Of a DNA stretch of 33,197 nt, positions 1,614 to 32,928 are shown in pieces. The DNA lies in NCBI GenBank assembly GCA_902790465.1, contig CADASF010000028.1, positions 1 through 33,197 on the forward strand, read 5' to 3'. The number at the start of each line of letters is the position of its first letter. Position 1 is the first letter of the stretch. Both the position numbers and the translations under genes were made by a program. The notes below the pieces were generated by a model. It was not told where the DNA came from. It did not search any database and saw nothing but the letters and a program-made list of their open reading frames with translations. This DNA is from an uncultured bacterium. Its GTDB lineage: Bacteria; Vulcanimicrobiota; CADAWZ01.

Positions 1614-2450
1614 CTAATCCCCCTGTCTCTTCTCTTTATCTTTGTCTATTATTTCCGTGATTTTGCTAAGAAATTCATTTCTTTTTCTTTCCCAATATGA
1701 AGAATTAAATTCACTTAATTTAAATTCTTCTATTATGTCGTTTTTTAGTTCCTCTAATCTTAGATTTAATAAATCTTTATCTGTATCATCTAATTTAATA
1801 CTTATTTGATTTTTATCAATACAGCCTTCAATTTGACTAAAATCAAATTTAGGCAAAAGGATAGATGTCCATTTATGCCTTAAAACCCAACTTGCTCCCA
1901 TTTCATTTAAACAAGCAGGACTGTCATAATATTCTTTTGATAATAGATAAATAACATGCAAATTGCTATTTTGAAATTCACTTCTTAGCCAGTCATAAAT
2001 ATTTTTATTAAGTGGTATAGAATAATCGGAAATAGAAGAACAGATAATATTTTTTCTTAATCCAATATCTTCAAGGAACTCAACAAAAGCCTTTACATAA
2101 TCTTTATTTTTACTTGAATGTGATATGAAAAGTTTTATAGTTTTTTCTTCTTTTTTCGATTTATTTAATAATTGATCCATTTTTTCTTTAGTAATCCTTG
2201 TATATTTCATTTGATAATTATCAGAAATATCGTCATCAATTCCCTTATAAAAGCCACGATCTTTTATTAAAAAATATTCTTTTGAACCATTTGGAAGATT
2301 TCTTTCCAATATATCATATTCTTCTATATTAACAGATGTATCTTCTGAAAATATCATCTTTTCTTGAACATTTGCTTTAATCTCTTTTATTTCACCATTT
2401 TGTTTATGAAGAGTTAAAGTCTCAGTAGGAAAATCATCTAAAAAAGACAT
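1614..2450 (-). CDS. TIR-domain protein with a conserved-looking N-terminal domain (defence effector-like)
   Basis: This 278-residue protein has a C-terminal bacterial TIR domain from about residue 104, opening with KLFISHSSKNKDY. The later segment SPACLNEMGASW places Glu183 where NAD-cleaving TIR domains carry their catalytic glutamate. Residues 1-95 form a separate small domain with the pattern ERNLPNGSKEYFLIKDRGFYKG. I remember similar segments at the N-termini of other bacterial immune-type proteins but cannot name a family. No signal peptide or membrane segment is visible, so it is probably cytosolic. The start is supported by AAAGGAAG upstream of ATG 2450. It lies between an HNH nuclease gene and a restriction helicase gene on the same strand, which fits an NADase or signalling effector in phage defence. 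No ThsA-like partner is present, so this is not a recognisable Thoeris system. Confidence 0.8.
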   Translation of the reverse strand: MSFLDDFPTETLTLHKQNGEIKEIKANVQEKMIFSEDTSVNIEEYDILERNLPNGSKEYFLIKDRGFYKGIDDDISDNYQMKYTRITKEKMDQLLNKSKKEEKTIKLFISHSSKNKDYVKAFVEFLEDIGLRKNIICSSISDYSIPLNKNIYDWLRSEFQNSNLHVIYLLSKEYYDSPACLNEMGASWVLRHKWTSILLPKFDFSQIEGCIDKNQISIKLDDTDKDLLNLRLEELKNDIIEEFKLSEFNSSYWERKRNEFLSKITEIIDKDKEKRQGD

Positions 2451-2583: not shown

Positions 2584-3558
2584 TTAAAATTCAACAATCT
2601 CGCCATCTTCTGTAATGAAAGTTAAAAAATATGGCTCATTAACAATTATATTATCAGATAATAAAATTGTTAATGTCAAAAAATTTTTATTAAACAAACT
2701 TACTATACAAAAAAGTTGTTTATTTATATTTACTAAAGATATAAAATGTCTTATTTTAGACAACTCAACATTTTCAACCGATAGTATATTCTTACACATT
2801 TCTATTATATTATTGTAGTCAAAAAAATTAAAATCAACAGAGCAAACTTTATGGCAAAAATCATAATTAAAATCTGTTTTTGTTGTAATTGCCTTATATA
2901 AATAATTTCTGATTTTCTCTGCAAAATTATTTTCTATATATGAAATCCCTAACTTCTCTACAGCATACTCATAAGCTATCTTCATAAAACCAAGACAAAT
3001 TTTAGAATAGTTTATTTCTTCACGATCTGTTAATTTAACAAAATTATTGTCTTTAGTCATTGAAACAGGATTATTGAGAATATTTTCAATGTCTTGTTCG
3101 CTCAAAAATTTAAATTCTCTTCGTAATTTTTTAGTTAAAATCTTTTTACATTCTTCAATACTTGAAAAAGTAGCGTTAATATTCACAATATTATCTTCAT
3201 TTTCTTTTATATCAATAATAGTTTTCAATTTAAAGCCATTATTTTTTTTCAAATATTCTCTTCCATCATCGCCAGTAATTGTTTTTATTTTTTTGTCAAA
3301 AAGTCCAATATCTTTATCTTTTTCTAATTCTGTCTTTCTTATTAACCTAGATAGAATATTATCCTTAACTAAATATGAATCAACTATTCTACCAAGCTCA
3401 TTATTACATTTTTTACAAACTCCAAAAGTAACTAATTTAGTATTTCCAAATGCTTCTGGTATTATATGTTCTTTACTTCTTGTTACAAGATCATCAAATT
3501 TTTTCTTACAAATCATGCAAAAATCTATCTTTTTATTTTCCATTTTGTATTTTCTCAT
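2584..3558 (-). CDS. HNH-type endonuclease-like protein
   Basis: This 324-residue protein carries a zinc-binding HNH-type N-terminus: C14-x2-C17, then SKEHIIPEAFG with His31, then VCKKCNNELG with Cys48, Cys51 and Asn52. The spacing matches the HNH proteins whose signature is EHIIPxxxGG...CxxCN. The rest (about 90-324) is rich in Lys, Asn and Ile and shows no motif I recognise; it may recognise a target or partner. GGAG lies about 15 nt upstream of ATG 3558. ATG 3543 (MENKKIDF) is an alternative start. The gene is followed after 133 nt by the TIR gene and may share a transcript with it. The nuclease fold is seen; a role in defence is inferred from the neighbours. Confidence 0.72.
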   Translation of the reverse strand: MRKYKMENKKIDFCMICKKKFDDLVTRSKEHIIPEAFGNTKLVTFGVCKKCNNELGRIVDSYLVKDNILSRLIRKTELEKDKDIGLFDKKIKTITGDDGREYLKKNNGFKLKTIIDIKENEDNIVNINATFSSIEECKKILTKKLRREFKFLSEQDIENILNNPVSMTKDNNFVKLTDREEINYSKICLGFMKIAYEYAVEKLGISYIENNFAEKIRNYLYKAITTKTDFNYDFCHKVCSVDFNFFDYNNIIEMCKNILSVENVELSKIRHFISLVNINKQLFCIVSLFNKNFLTLTILLSDNIIVNEPYFLTFITEDGEIVEF

Positions 3559-3832: not shown

Positions 3833-5425
3833 TTATAAAATTATTTGCCTTTTTTCATCGTCTGCGACAAATACTGCTGTTATTATTTTTTTTGTCGATT
3901 TATAAGCAGAAGCATAATCTCTCGATTTTATCTGTTCCTCTCCTTCTTGTCGCTTTTTATCTACATCTTTTGAAGTTGAAGCAAATTTAAATTCGATAAC
4001 TATAACTAATTTGTCTTTAAAGACAACAACTACATCTGGACGACCTTTAAAAGTATGTACTTCTGAAAAATATGTTATTTTTGCACCACTTAGCAACATC
4101 AAAAATAACGAACGATACCAAGATTCATCTCTATCTTTGTAGTCATCCTGTTTTTTTTCTCCTTCGATAGAAGGAGCGAATATGTTTTCGGGAATAGCTT
4201 TTAATGCCTCATTAAATATATTGGCAACCTGTGCAATATCTTCTACTTCCAAAGATTCCCAAATATCACTACTAAATTCAGCATCATCTTGTATATTGTA
4301 AAAATTTTCAAGAAAAAGCCTATCCATTGAACTTTTTACTTCTTCATTTGGATAATCAAGAATAAGTATATTGCCCTTTCTTTCTGAAATAGTCAAATAA
4401 CCTGCTTGATATAAAAAACTTTCTACACTTGTACTTTCTATTTCGTGAGAATTTGTAAAATCTTCATATACTTTTTTATGTATATATTCTTTTGGGGCTT
4501 TTATTTTATGACTTTTTAAATATTTAGCAAGAAATGAAGGAGTTGCAGAATTGTACCAATAATTGCTAAAATTTGAATCAGCAAAAAAATTTAAAACTGA
4601 AAATGGATTATATACTCTTGTTTCACCATCAAATGAGAATCCATCATAATATTCTTTTATTTTTGCAATTAACTCTTCTCTATCCATATATAATTCTTTT
4701 TCTGTATTTTCTATCCAATCAACAAAATTATCTTCAAGTTCTTTTTGGGTATATCCAACTATATCACTGTATTCTTTTAACATTGATATATCTTTTAAAT
4801 TATTTAAACAAGAAAAAACTCCAGTTTTACTAAATTTTGAGACACCTGTTATAAATATAAATTTTACTTGACTACAACCTTTTAAAACACCATAAAATGA
4901 ACGAAGAGTTTCTCGCATCTCATTCGCTTTTTCTAAATTATTTATATTGTCTGTTATTGGTTTATCATATTCATCTATAAGAAGTACAACATGTCCAAAC
5001 TGCTCATATAATTCATTTATTACATCAAGAAAAACATCATCTGAATTATCTTTAACAACTATATCAAGTTTATATTTTTTTATATAATACCTAACAAGAT
5101 AATTTATAAGTGAATTATTTAATCCTCCACCATCTTTATATTTAGCTAAAAGACTCATATCCAATTTTATAACTGGACTTGGGTGTTTTGATTGCTCTTT
5201 TACCCATTCCTCTGCATATAATCCTTTAAATAGTTCTGCTTCACCTTGAAACATCGCCTCTAATGTTGACAAAGTAAGAGATTTTCCAAAACGACGAGGA
5301 CGAGATAGAAAATAACTTTTTTCTGTTTTAGCAAGTTGAAGTAATTTTTCTGTTTTATCTACATAAAGATAATTATTTCTGCGAATTTTTTCAAAATCTT
5401 GAACACCTATTGGCAATTCTTGCAT
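3833..5425 (-). CDS. AAA-ATPase-like / PD-(D/E)XK nuclease family protein
   Basis: A complete 530-residue protein of the family annotated as AAA-ATPase_like plus a C-terminal PD-(D/E)XK domain (formerly DUF1703). The N-terminus MQELPIGVQDFEKIRRNNYLYVDKT is typical. Walker A is the family variant RPRRFGKSL (42-50), and Walker B is VVLLIDEYDKP with D151-E152. The C-terminus has GRPDVVVVF (Asp464) then VIVIEFKF (Glu478, Lys480), the nuclease core. AAGGAGG lies upstream of ATG 5425. Such genes are often present in many copies in gut bacteria, and their function is unsettled (defence, toxin or transposon-associated roles have been suggested). Its promoter region is unusually hairpin-rich (5455-5589). 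The gene looks intact. Confidence 0.88.
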   Translation of the reverse strand: MQELPIGVQDFEKIRRNNYLYVDKTEKLLQLAKTEKSYFLSRPRRFGKSLTLSTLEAMFQGEAELFKGLYAEEWVKEQSKHPSPVIKLDMSLLAKYKDGGGLNNSLINYLVRYYIKKYKLDIVVKDNSDDVFLDVINELYEQFGHVVLLIDEYDKPITDNINNLEKANEMRETLRSFYGVLKGCSQVKFIFITGVSKFSKTGVFSCLNNLKDISMLKEYSDIVGYTQKELEDNFVDWIENTEKELYMDREELIAKIKEYYDGFSFDGETRVYNPFSVLNFFADSNFSNYWYNSATPSFLAKYLKSHKIKAPKEYIHKKVYEDFTNSHEIESTSVESFLYQAGYLTISERKGNILILDYPNEEVKSSMDRLFLENFYNIQDDAEFSSDIWESLEVEDIAQVANIFNEALKAIPENIFAPSIEGEKKQDDYKDRDESWYRSLFLMLLSGAKITYFSEVHTFKGRPDVVVVFKDKLVIVIEFKFASTSKDVDKKRQEGEEQIKSRDYASAYKSTKKIITAVFVADDEKRQIIL

Positions 5426-10284: not shown

Positions 10285-11550
10285 TTATGGTTCATAAACT
10301 GGAGGAGGCACTCTTTTATGAGTTGTTGAAGCATGCATTGCCTCTATTTTAGCTTTTATTTCCTTATCTTCACATTCTCCAGTCTTCATATATTTATTTA
10401 ATTGTGGATAAGTAAAACCTATATTATCCTCATCTGTTTTTCCACAAAGCCCATCAGAAGGTGCTTTTCTTGTGAATTTTTCAGGAAGTCCTAAATACTC
10501 TCCTATTGCAATGACTTCTTCTGTGTTTAGATTTCCTATTGGATTGATATCAAATGCTCCATCTCCCCACTTTGTGAAATAGCCTATATATTTTTCACTT
10601 GCATTTCCTGTTCCACAAACTAAATATCCATTTTCTTGGGCTATTGCATAAAGAACAGTCATTCTGATTCTAGGAGGAATATTTGTCTTTGTCTTAGCTC
10701 CTAATTCAGTATCCACTCCTTCGAGCAACCCCTTATATGCTTTTTCTATATTTACCGTTTTATTTGGAATTTGTAAAAATTCGCAGAGGTCTTTGCTATC
10801 TTGAATATCAGATTGAACACCATTGGGCATTAGAATTCCGAGAACATTTTCTTTTCCAACGCTTTTTGACAATAATGTTGCGACAACAGAACTGTCTTTA
10901 CCGCCAGATATTCCGACAACAAATCCCTTTGTTTTTGTTGTCTCTTTTATGTTTCTAATCCACTTGATTATTTCTTCTGTTTTTTCAGCTGTTGATTTTA
11001 TTTTCTCTTTTTTTCTGATTGTAAAATCAACATGTAGTGATTTCATAACATCAAGTGCTTTTTGGTGCATTTCAGGTGTAGTACCTGCACAACATTCTGG
11101 ATCAACTAAGATTGGAACTTCAGGAAAATGTGCTTTTAATATTGCAATATTGCTTATTACACATATATCAGTTACAAGTCCACATATCTCTATTGAAGTT
11201 ATATTTGATACAACTGATTTTATAACATAAGGCAAATCTACAGATCCAAAAGATTTTTTCAATATCTTGTGGCATTTTTGATTTGAATTTACTATTTTTT
11301 CAAAGTCTCCATAGAGTTCATGCCCCTTTGTCCCTTCGATACAATGTTCGACTGGAAGATGTTTACCTTCATTTGTGCTAAGGTAATTTTTTTGATGTGT
11401 GTCATAAGTAAAAAATATGTGTTCGTTTCTTTCTATATAACCCTTTATTTTTTTATCGACATTTTTTGCCACATTCAAGGCTTCTTTAGATGAAAGAACA
11501 CCTGTTACAAAGTCATTTTGGCAATCTATTACAACAAGTACACCACTCAT
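10285..11550 (-). CDS. nadE: Nicotinamidase-like hydrolase fused to ammonia-dependent NAD synthetase
   Basis: A 421-residue two-domain fusion. Residues 1-180 are an isochorismatase/nicotinamidase domain: catalytic Asp9 (VVIDCQNDF), metal ligands Asp50, His52 and His69 (TYDTHQ, VEHC), a lysine at 98 or 99, and nucleophile Cys130 in GLVTDICV. Residues 185-421 are a NadE domain without the glutaminase of the longer form: P-loop SGGKDS (215-220), GTGNASEKYIGYFTKWGD, and KAPSDGLCGKTDEDN. The metal triad favours nicotinamidase over other cysteine hydrolases. Nicotinamidase releases nicotinate and ammonia; NadE uses ammonia to amidate nicotinate adenine dinucleotide, so the fusion joins the first and last steps of NAD salvage. 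It is first in the operon with dapA and rnj. GGAGG lies 14 nt before ATG 11550, a long spacing. Confidence 0.9.
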   Translation of the reverse strand: MSGVLVVIDCQNDFVTGVLSSKEALNVAKNVDKKIKGYIERNEHIFFTYDTHQKNYLSTNEGKHLPVEHCIEGTKGHELYGDFEKIVNSNQKCHKILKKSFGSVDLPYVIKSVVSNITSIEICGLVTDICVISNIAILKAHFPEVPILVDPECCAGTTPEMHQKALDVMKSLHVDFTIRKKEKIKSTAEKTEEIIKWIRNIKETTKTKGFVVGISGGKDSSVVATLLSKSVGKENVLGILMPNGVQSDIQDSKDLCEFLQIPNKTVNIEKAYKGLLEGVDTELGAKTKTNIPPRIRMTVLYAIAQENGYLVCGTGNASEKYIGYFTKWGDGAFDINPIGNLNTEEVIAIGEYLGLPEKFTRKAPSDGLCGKTDEDNIGFTYPQLNKYMKTGECEDKEIKAKIEAMHASTTHKRVPPPVYEP

Positions 11551-30132: not shown

Positions 30133-32928
30133 ATGAAGAAGCTCGTAACTTTAGCACTCGCTGGTGTCTGTGCATTGGCATTTGCAGCAACTGCAGATGC
30201 AGGATCTGCTCTCAGAATTAAAGCTCCTACAGTAAAACAGGGAGTCACAAAAAATGTCGGTTCAGCAAATGTTCAGGTAAACCATGTTGAAACAGCATAT
30301 TCAGTTTACGCCGTAAATGATGGAACTAGAGCATCACAAGGTGGTTACTTTGTTGTTAATTCTATATGGACAGACAATCTTTTAAATTCTCAGACTGTTT
30401 ATGATGATATAAAAACTTCTCTTACTAAACTCGGAAGTCAATATTCTAATTTGTTCCCAGCAGTAGCACAAGAAGCAACTTATGTCCATGCTGCTCAGAT
30501 TTCTTCTGGTAATGCTAAATATAATATGACAACTCAAGCTGCAGGCACAGGTTATTCAAGTGTTTACAATATTGCTCACTATGTAATTCCTGGAAGAGTC
30601 GCATCTCTTGCACAAGGAACTACAGAAATAGATATGTCAACTGAAAATGCTCCAAACGGTGCAGCTCCAGCAAATTCAAATGCAAAGACATTTGAAAATG
30701 AAGAAGCAGCTGCAAAATGGGTTAATGAAGTAAGAACAGCATTTAATAACCAAGAAGCATCAAACTCTCAGAGCGTTGCTAATAAAGTTTCAGCATTATC
30801 AGCAATTTACAATTCATTCTTAGCAGACCAAGCAGCAACTCTCGCAGCAGCTCAGAAAGAATATGACGATGCAGTAGCAGCAAGACAAGCAGCTCAAAAT
30901 GCTTATGATAATGCAATACAAGAAAGAAAAGATGCAAAAGCTGACTATGATTCTAAGGAAGATGTATCAGCATTTGAAAATGCTCTTACAGATGCAACAA
31001 ATGTTCAAAATGAAAAACAGGGTATCTATGATGAGTCAGTAGATGCAAGAATTGCTGCAGAAAAAGCACTCGAAGCAGCAATAAAGGCTGAAGCAGAGGC
31101 TCTTAAAGCTCTCCAGGATGCAGAAGCTGCTCAAAAAGCCGCAGAAGAAGATTATAATGCTAAAGTAGCTGTAAAAAATGCTAAAGTTGGAGAAGCAGCA
31201 GAAGCACTACAAGCAGAAAAAGATGCAAAAGATGTTCTTGATAAAGCAGTAGCAGCTCATGAAGCAGCACAAGCTGATTACGATGCAAAAGTAGCAGCAA
31301 CAAAAGCTGCAGCAGAAGTTCTTGAAGCAGCAAAAGCTGAAGAAGCAAATGCACTCACAGCTCTCAATGAAGCAAAAGCAGATAAAGAAGCTGCACAGGT
31401 AGCTTTAGATAATGCAAAAGCTGAAATTGCAGCATTTGATCGTGCTATGGCAGAAGAAGGTTTAGCAGATGCTCTTCATACAGCAAGAGAAGAATATGAC
31501 GATGCACACATTGCAGTTGCCGATGCAAAAGAAGCACAAAAAGAAGCACAAAAAGAAGTTACTTCTATACAAGATAAAATTGATGTAGCAAGTGAATATA
31601 TGACATTATGGAATGCCTATGCAGGTGTTAGAAACAGTCATGCAAACATAGGTGAAACAGGAATAGAACAGTTAGAAGCAGTAAGAGAAAAAGCAGAAGC
31701 AGTAAGAGCTTTTGAAGAAGAACATGGCTTAGCACATTCTTATATGCTTATAGATGGTAGTAGCCACAATGTCAGCGTAATAATGTATGGTGATGATTAC
31801 CCAAGCAAAACATATTCATATCCTTCTAAATCTTCTAATATAGCCCCCTTCCTTGGTCATCCTGATACATCTGAATTAGAAAGTCAGTTATCTTCAGCAA
31901 ATTCAACTGTAGCACAAGCAAAAGAAGCTGTAACAGCAGCAGAAAAAGCTGAAGCAACAGCAAAGGCAGCTTATGCTGCAGCAAAACAAGCTTATGAAGA
32001 TGGTATTGCAGCATTAGATGCAGAAAAAGCAAGACTTGACAAAGCAAAAGGCGACGCTGAGTTAGCTCTCGACGATGCAATAGGAGCTGAAACAAATGCA
32101 CAAAGAGCTTACGATGCAAAAGTATCTGTAAAAGATGCAAAGGCAGAAGAACTTGCAGAAGCACAGGAAGCTGAAGCAGATGCACTCGTAGCACTTAATG
32201 AAGCAAACGATGCAAAAGTAGCAGCACAAACAGCCTATGATGAAGCAAAAGCAGCAAGAGTAGCTAAAGATGGTGAAGTCGTAGATGCAGAAAATGCAGA
32301 AGCAGATGCACTCGCAGCACTCAATGCAGCAAACGGAGTTCAGGCAACAGCACAAGCTGACTACAATTCAGCAGTAGAAGTAAGAGAAGGCAAACAATCA
32401 GACCTTGCAAATGCACAAGCAGATGAAGATAATGCCCTCGAAGTTCTCAAAGCAGCAAAAGCAGCAAAAGCAGCAGCAGAAAAAGCTCTCGCAGATGCAA
32501 AACAAGCAAGAGCAGATGCTTTAGCATTATTCAAAAATAAACAACAAGCAGAAGCAAGTGCTTTGACATCCCTCAACAACAAGAAACAAGTAGAAGCAAG
32601 AGAACTCGCAGAACTTGAAGCCTTGAAGGTAAAACAGGCAAATGACAATGCAGCTAAACTTGCTGAACTCAAATCACAGTTGACAAGCCACATCAATTCA
32701 TTGAAGTATATTGATGACCAAACTGGTATTTACGGTCTCAACTACAATGTAAACATGATTGATGGATATGACAACTTGAGATTTGATCAAGTAGTATATC
32801 AAGCAAATGCATTCACAGAACCTGAATATTCTCTCTCATCTGCAAATAAGAAAGATGACAAAGCAATAGAATCAATCGTATCTGTTTCATACAGACAGCA
32901 ACCATACACAATGCTTATGTTGATATAA
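30133..32928 (+). CDS. Large exported alanine-rich coiled-coil protein with 42-residue repeats
   Basis: A 931-codon frame with a strong signal peptide: MKKLVTLALAGVCALAFAAT, likely cleaved after ADA (residue 23). Residues 24 to about 235 form a globular head. About 236-480 and 580-855 are Ala/Glu/Lys/Asp-rich coiled coil. Residues 480-580 are a non-coiled insert with Tyr, Ser and Pro. Two blocks of an exact 42-residue repeat lie at 298-423 and 659-784, each unit opening with a Y-D heptad such as DYDAKVA. Residues 856-931 are globular again. The frame ends at 32926-32928, but the protein appears to continue in the -1 frame (32910 onward). The gene has preferred codons (CTC, AAC, GAC), suggesting high expression. 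It may be a surface-layer, stalk or adhesin-type protein; no homologue is recognised. Confidence 0.85.
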   Translation: MKKLVTLALAGVCALAFAATADAGSALRIKAPTVKQGVTKNVGSANVQVNHVETAYSVYAVNDGTRASQGGYFVVNSIWTDNLLNSQTVYDDIKTSLTKLGSQYSNLFPAVAQEATYVHAAQISSGNAKYNMTTQAAGTGYSSVYNIAHYVIPGRVASLAQGTTEIDMSTENAPNGAAPANSNAKTFENEEAAAKWVNEVRTAFNNQEASNSQSVANKVSALSAIYNSFLADQAATLAAAQKEYDDAVAARQAAQNAYDNAIQERKDAKADYDSKEDVSAFENALTDATNVQNEKQGIYDESVDARIAAEKALEAAIKAEAEALKALQDAEAAQKAAEEDYNAKVAVKNAKVGEAAEALQAEKDAKDVLDKAVAAHEAAQADYDAKVAATKAAAEVLEAAKAEEANALTALNEAKADKEAAQVALDNAKAEIAAFDRAMAEEGLADALHTAREEYDDAHIAVADAKEAQKEAQKEVTSIQDKIDVASEYMTLWNAYAGVRNSHANIGETGIEQLEAVREKAEAVRAFEEEHGLAHSYMLIDGSSHNVSVIMYGDDYPSKTYSYPSKSSNIAPFLGHPDTSELESQLSSANSTVAQAKEAVTAAEKAEATAKAAYAAAKQAYEDGIAALDAEKARLDKAKGDAELALDDAIGAETNAQRAYDAKVSVKDAKAEELAEAQEAEADALVALNEANDAKVAAQTAYDEAKAARVAKDGEVVDAENAEADALAALNAANGVQATAQADYNSAVEVREGKQSDLANAQADEDNALEVLKAAKAAKAAAEKALADAKQARADALALFKNKQQAEASALTSLNNKKQVEARELAELEALKVKQANDNAAKLAELKSQLTSHINSLKYIDDQTGIYGLNYNVNMIDGYDNLRFDQVVYQANAFTEPEYSLSSANKKDDKAIESIVSVSYRQQPYTMLMLI
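31024..31401 (+). repeat. Three tandem 126-bp (42-residue) coiled-coil repeats, block 1
   Basis: Units start at residues 298 (IYDESVD), 340 (DYNAKVA) and 382 (DYDAKVA). Each is exactly six heptads with no insertion, and the fourth and fifth heptads resemble AEAEALK-ALQDAEA. The DNA copies have diverged while the protein pattern holds, so the period is maintained by structure. Confidence 0.8.
32107..32484 (+). repeat. Three tandem 126-bp (42-residue) coiled-coil repeats, block 2
   Basis: Units start at residues 659 (AYDAKVS), 701 (AYDEAKA) and 743 (DYNSAVE), each 42 residues. The first two carry AEADALV-ALNEAND and AEADALA-ALNAANG at heptads 4-5, close to block 1 unit 3 (EEANALT-ALNEAKA). A near-copy of 39 residues precedes the block (620-658). 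Confidence 0.8.

Follow-up and report, generated by a model that had tools for sequence, protein, structure and literature searches.

A nicotinamidase-like domain fused to an ammonia-type NAD synthetase in a family of gut bacteria lacking the de novo NAD genes tested

The stretch of DNA analyzed here (33,197 nt, hereafter the window) is from the genome of an uncultured bacterium and carries on its reverse strand a gene (10285..11550) for a predicted PncA-like amidase joined to an ammonia-type NAD synthetase. A dapA gene (PF00701; 9376..10269, reverse strand) lies 15 bp downstream of it, followed by a gene for RNase J (PF22505/PF17770; 7577..9355, reverse strand); this order is the same in three genera, and both genes are conserved neighbours with no evident functional link to the fusion. 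No Rfam riboswitch match was found in the window, and promoter and terminator scans gave results at chance level. The fusion gene is a single unbroken frame of 421 codons (421 aa) with no internal stop, and its product matches the isochorismatase domain PF00857 over residues 4-171 (E 7.5e-22) and the NAD synthetase domain PF02540 over residues 192-414 (E 1.4e-58), with a TIGR00552 nadE score of 207.7 bits vs. a cut-off of 63.65. Apart from these, the Pfam search gave a weak match to PF03054 over the P-loop region and no CN-hydrolase (nitrilase-fold) glutaminase domain of the kind that defines type F synthetases. Full-length fusions, 60-91% identical over the whole length, were found in all four genomes of the family (three genera), the three relatives being the public assemblies RUG13696, Horse_feces333 and CO.B36.metabat-bins.133. 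Because the identical architecture is present in four separately assembled genomes, an assembly or frameshift artefact was ruled out and the fusion is genuine. A nicotinamidase-like/NadE fusion is also what the sequence-only reading of this DNA had claimed, and the intact frame and the PF00857, PF02540 and TIGR00552 matches bear it out. Judged from the two closest copies, both halves are under purifying selection, with a dN/dS of 0.12 in the N half and 0.07 in the C half, and 0.30 in the short and variable linker (about residues 176-191, 10978..11025, reverse strand), which is 20-29% identical between genera.

The N half (residues 1-175, 11026..11550, reverse strand) is an isochorismatase-fold, nicotinamidase-like domain according to PF00857, an AF2 model of this half alone (pLDDT 93.9) and its fold matches in the PDB. 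The first 17 of these matches are all solved nicotinamidases or pyrazinamidases, including those of B. subtilis, S. pneumoniae, S. mutans and P. horikoshii, with TM-scores (query) of 0.80-0.88, and the carbamoylsarcosine, biuret and maleamate amidases rank below them. By residue alignment, the Asp-Lys-Cys triad of PncA is present as the catalytic Asp9 (11524..11526), the catalytic Lys98 (11257..11259) at the end of a strand that spans residues 93-98 in the model, and the nucleophile Cys130 (11161..11163) within G-L-V-T-D-I-C-V; all three are encoded on the reverse strand and are invariant in 43 of 43 aligned hydrolases. The metal site, D50-x-H52 ... E61 ... H69 (11344..11403, reverse strand), matches D53/H55/E64/H71 of the S. 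pneumoniae nicotinamidase and has the D-x-H...H arrangement of PncA, with Glu as fourth ligand as in the Firmicutes type. G124, the Gly preceding the cis-peptide, and the Cys-Val pair C130-V131 are also as in PncA. Across the four fusions D9, D50, H52, E61, H69, K98, C130 and the P-loop of the C half are invariant. The Asp9/Cys130 active site and the Asp50/His52/His69 metal triad pointed out in the sequence-only reading were thus correctly named, but that list had omitted the catalytic K98 and the fourth metal ligand E61. It had also considered that homologues might have lost the hydrolase active site; the active sites are intact in every homologue.

Firmicutes nicotinamidases (SpNic 3o90, B. 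subtilis PncA 5zn8 and O. iheyensis OiNIC) share the fold and the Asp-Lys-Cys triad with the N half, as well as the D-x-H...E...H metal site and the TDICV around the cysteine, but they stand alone and their substrate pocket differs. In proven nicotinamidases the second metal His has a P-x-H flank and is preceded, at a distance of three residues, by Trp or Phe, and the loop that follows the catalytic Lys carries a Tyr (PMC3581539, PMC13398362). In the fusion the flank reads L65-P66-V67-E68-H69, so Pro66/Leu65 replaces the W/F68 aromatic and a PxxH stands instead of the PxH, which leaves the N half without either the flank or the aromatic at His -3 (PMC3581539). The N half also lacks the YSxF-loop Tyr of the pocket, and its loop after the catalytic Lys is three residues shorter. 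Against the NCBIfam PncA equivalog model NF008623 the N half scored 20.9 bits, far under the cut-off of 174; the hydrolase of the Selenomonas ruminantium operon described below is also under this cut-off (39.5 bits). In our alignment the altered pocket and loop traits are common to most of the clostridial hydrolase type, and therefore mark a subfamily rather than decay of this copy. With two pocket aromatics replaced, the identity of the substrate rests on the catalytic residues, the fold and the gene context. The lost aromatics, the altered flank and the low PncA score could be explained by an N half that is no nicotinamidase, and that either hydrolyses another amide or senses nicotinamide to regulate the NadE half. 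We find this unlikely, since the triad and the four metal ligands do not vary among the fusions, the best folds are all nicotinamidases, genes of this type occur together with NrtR, pncB, nadE, NAMPT and nadD, and the genome would otherwise be without any nicotinamidase. On sequence and model grounds the N half very probably works as a nicotinamidase, and we label it PncA-like rather than canonical PncA.

The C half (residues 192-414, 10309..10977, reverse strand) is an NAD synthetase without glutaminase, as seen from PF02540, TIGR00552 and fold matches to 2e18 and 3fiu. Its P-loop was read from the sequence as SGGKDSS (residues 215-221, 10888..10908, reverse strand) and is invariant in the fusions, in agreement with the earlier description of a glutaminase-free NadE with an intact P-loop. 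The SGGxDS motif, the nadE score above cut-off and a C-terminus that ends about 8 residues past HKR, without an extended C-terminal loop, are those of a type N synthetase, whereas the type F NadE of the sister family continues beyond the HKR point. The extended loop is a mark of glutaminase-partnered synthetases, and for type N synthetases there is evidence for use of free ammonia in vivo (PMC3376133). Type N enzymes such as P. horikoshii 2e18 and S. typhimurium NadE have the same core, the SGGxDS P-loop and the short C-terminus, but are single-domain, while the fusion adds an N-terminal amidase domain. In this it resembles the type F synthetases (CN-hydrolase + NadE), which likewise combine NadE with an amidase domain in a single chain, although the type F amidase is a nitrilase-fold glutaminase feeding ammonia and that of the fusion is isochorismatase-fold, on a NadE of clostridial type. 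The second-best PDB match of the C half, in sequence and in fold, is the Francisella NMN synthetase 3fiu, and the C half could accordingly be an NMN synthetase (NadE*) that amidates NaMN and not NaAD. This is very unlikely, as the P. horikoshii NAD synthetase 2e18 scores higher and is the best match, TIGR00552 is matched, a nicotinate-nucleotide-type NadD is present and the genome has no NadE other than the fusion.

Queries of the genome, one protein family at a time, found a single isochorismatase domain and a single NadE, both in the fusion gene. The genome also encodes PncB (nicotinate phosphoribosyltransferase, 503.8 bits) and NadD (NaMN adenylyltransferase of the nicotinate-nucleotide type), while family searches of this genome found no NadC, no NadA and no NAMPT, the sole NAPRTase-family match being PncB. 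A NadE-glutaminase-like gene was not found in it either: its two CN-hydrolases look Lnt-like and deaminated-glutathione-amidase-type, and a separate glutaminase subunit (type R) was rejected on this basis. With PncB and NadD present, NadA, NadC and NAMPT missing, and a single NadE and isochorismatase domain, the fusion appears to supply both ends of an obligate niacin salvage route. This is in line with the PncB/(PncA)/NadD/NadE variant described for niacin auxotrophs among gut bacteria (PMC6593275), and domains, residues and inventory together uphold the original suggestion of two enzymes of one salvage route within one chain. Two of the relatives (G001 and G002) have an identical gene inventory; the fourth family genome (G003) is 69% complete and its PncB was seen only as a piece at a contig edge. 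The sister family (G004) has NadA, NadC and a glutamine-dependent NadE, and its sole isochorismatase protein is biuret-hydrolase-like. As a separate observation, the PncB of our genome (L082 4058-5809, C37) is a 584-aa protein with a ~50-aa insert relative to TIGR01513, and the same position divides the PncB matches of G001, G002 and G004 in two.

How widespread the fusion is had been raised as a question with the first reading. It is confined to the four family genomes among 149 genomes of the phylum; the other 145 have none, and other families of the phylum have a stand-alone or glutamine-type NadE. It was also absent among the matches listed, best first, from 398 genomes of the clostridial phylum that holds Marvinbryantia, where a chain with both halves would be expected near the head. 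Scanning 84,980 genomes for peptide patterns, which detects close relatives only, returned the fusion solely in its own family, and independent fusions may exist elsewhere. No full-length fusion was present in the phage or plasmid collections, and a scan of viral contigs with the full fusion alignment gave no match. Two phage records were rejected as candidates: MT835544.1, which covers 96%, has two adjacent genes, and MT835512.1 has a lone hydrolase. The former (L127) carries a cluster of NAMPT, a macro domain, nadE and the hydrolase.

The two halves have counterparts as separate genes in salvage operons. The order NrtR - hydrolase - pncB - nadE was found on Selenomonas ruminantium plasmid pSRC1 (L132) and in two genomes of the clostridial phylum, G491 (L164) and G294 (L165), and the NUDIX proteins of these operons bear the NrtR DNA-binding domain. 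These operons have a homologous hydrolase and a sister-subtype NadE in the same order as the fusion, but as separate genes with pncB between them, while the fusion genomes keep pncB elsewhere. In G549 (L163) nadE follows the hydrolase directly, 83 bp apart, and Acetoanaerobium (L172) has hydrolase - prs - NAMPT - nadE. That hydrolase and nadE stay separate within the same operons, often with pncB between and NrtR in front, points to a linkage through the pathway. Such clusters were also noted on viral-labelled IMG/VR contigs, as nadE - pncB - hydrolase (L112), nadE/hydrolase - prs-like - pncB (L113) and hydrolase - nadE - nadD-like (L123); should these contigs indeed be phage, the clusters, like that of L127, would represent cassettes that restore NAD by way of nicotinamidase and NadE. 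In G522 (L167, 3652-5051) the start of nadE shares a one-base overlap with a divergent hydrolase gene; this pair is likely to be translationally coupled and is a possible step towards fusion. The recurring pairing with nadE suggests a nicotinamidase function for a clostridial 'cysteine hydrolase' type about which little is known.

In the NadE tree the fusions form a clade (100/99) that is sister to the operon/mobile NadE type (98/84) within a joint clade (100/100), apart from the other NadEs of the phylum, and in the hydrolase tree the fusion clade (97/92) lies inside the Firmicutes type (100/99). If clostridial-type salvage genes were transferred horizontally and these neighbours then joined, both placements would be economically explained. 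The genes may have been acquired as one operon, and the loss by the family of de novo synthesis and of its glutamine-type NadE probably accompanied the acquisition.

The sequence-only reading further proposed a local hand-off, in which the NadE half would use ammonia set free by the nicotinamidase half in place of a glutaminase. Both reactions share one chain, the steady-state supply of and demand for ammonia would balance one to one if nicotinamide were the only precursor, and a conventional NadE glutaminase was not found among the CN-hydrolases of the genome. However, the hydrolase/nadE pair also exists unfused, sometimes with pncB between, and the NadE of the sister subtype manages without fusion. 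The poorly conserved linker indicates no fixed path, and in the whole-chain AF2 model (pTM 0.54) the domain arrangement is too uncertain for a tunnel search. The ammonia of nicotinamide is moreover released two enzymes (PncB, NadD) before NadE and on another molecule, and cells grown on nicotinate would get no such ammonia. Ammonia in gut and rumen is usually millimolar, which also counts against a local hand-off. The NadE half has no glutaminase-contacting C-terminal loop, and its type N relatives use free ammonia in vivo (PMC3376133). Given the unfused neighbours, the unconserved linker, the type N C-terminus and the different molecules, the hydrolase as nitrogen source is unsupported and, in our judgement, very unlikely. 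A 2012 survey of the family looked in genome context for a non-orthologous glutaminase that might partner NadE and found none (PMC3376133); a hand-off, if true, would supply NAD synthetase with ammonia from a source other than a glutaminase.

Taken together, we consider it probable that the fusion is a bifunctional NAD-salvage enzyme from welded, horizontally acquired clostridial-type operon genes, which draws on pool ammonia and whose benefit lies in co-expression. For the two activities, the ammonia source and the benefit we infer the following. The N half would deamidate nicotinamide to nicotinate and ammonia, using the Asp-Lys-Cys triad and a D/H/E/H-bound metal, the separate PncB and NadD would convert nicotinate to NaAD, and the C half would amidate NaAD to NAD with ATP and ammonia from the general pool. 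The chain would have arisen from hydrolase - [pncB] - nadE salvage-operon genes, and its benefit may most simply be a fixed 1:1 co-expression of both ends of the only NAD route of a niacin auxotroph. No published description of this fusion was found in the open literature searched; the single-chain architecture appears to be new, while its two components, the salvage pathway and the operon logic were already known. In its hosts, gut bacteria without the de novo genes tested, one chain represents both ends of the only visible NAD route, and the fusion lets the nitrogen source of single-domain NAD synthetases be tested in a natural construct.

Elsewhere in the window, a 931-aa protein (30133-32928, forward strand) begins with a signal-like sequence and contains long repeat stretches rich in Ala, Lys and Glu, with no Pfam match, and a protein with a predicted AAA-ATPase and a PD-(D/E)XK nuclease is encoded at 3833-5425 (reverse strand). 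An HNH endonuclease gene (2584-3558, reverse strand) adjoins a gene for a TIR-domain protein (1614-2450, reverse strand) that strongly matches the abortive-infection protein SpbK (PADLOC 7.7e-66). Nicotinamide is a product of TIR NADases, and the fusion could return it to salvage.
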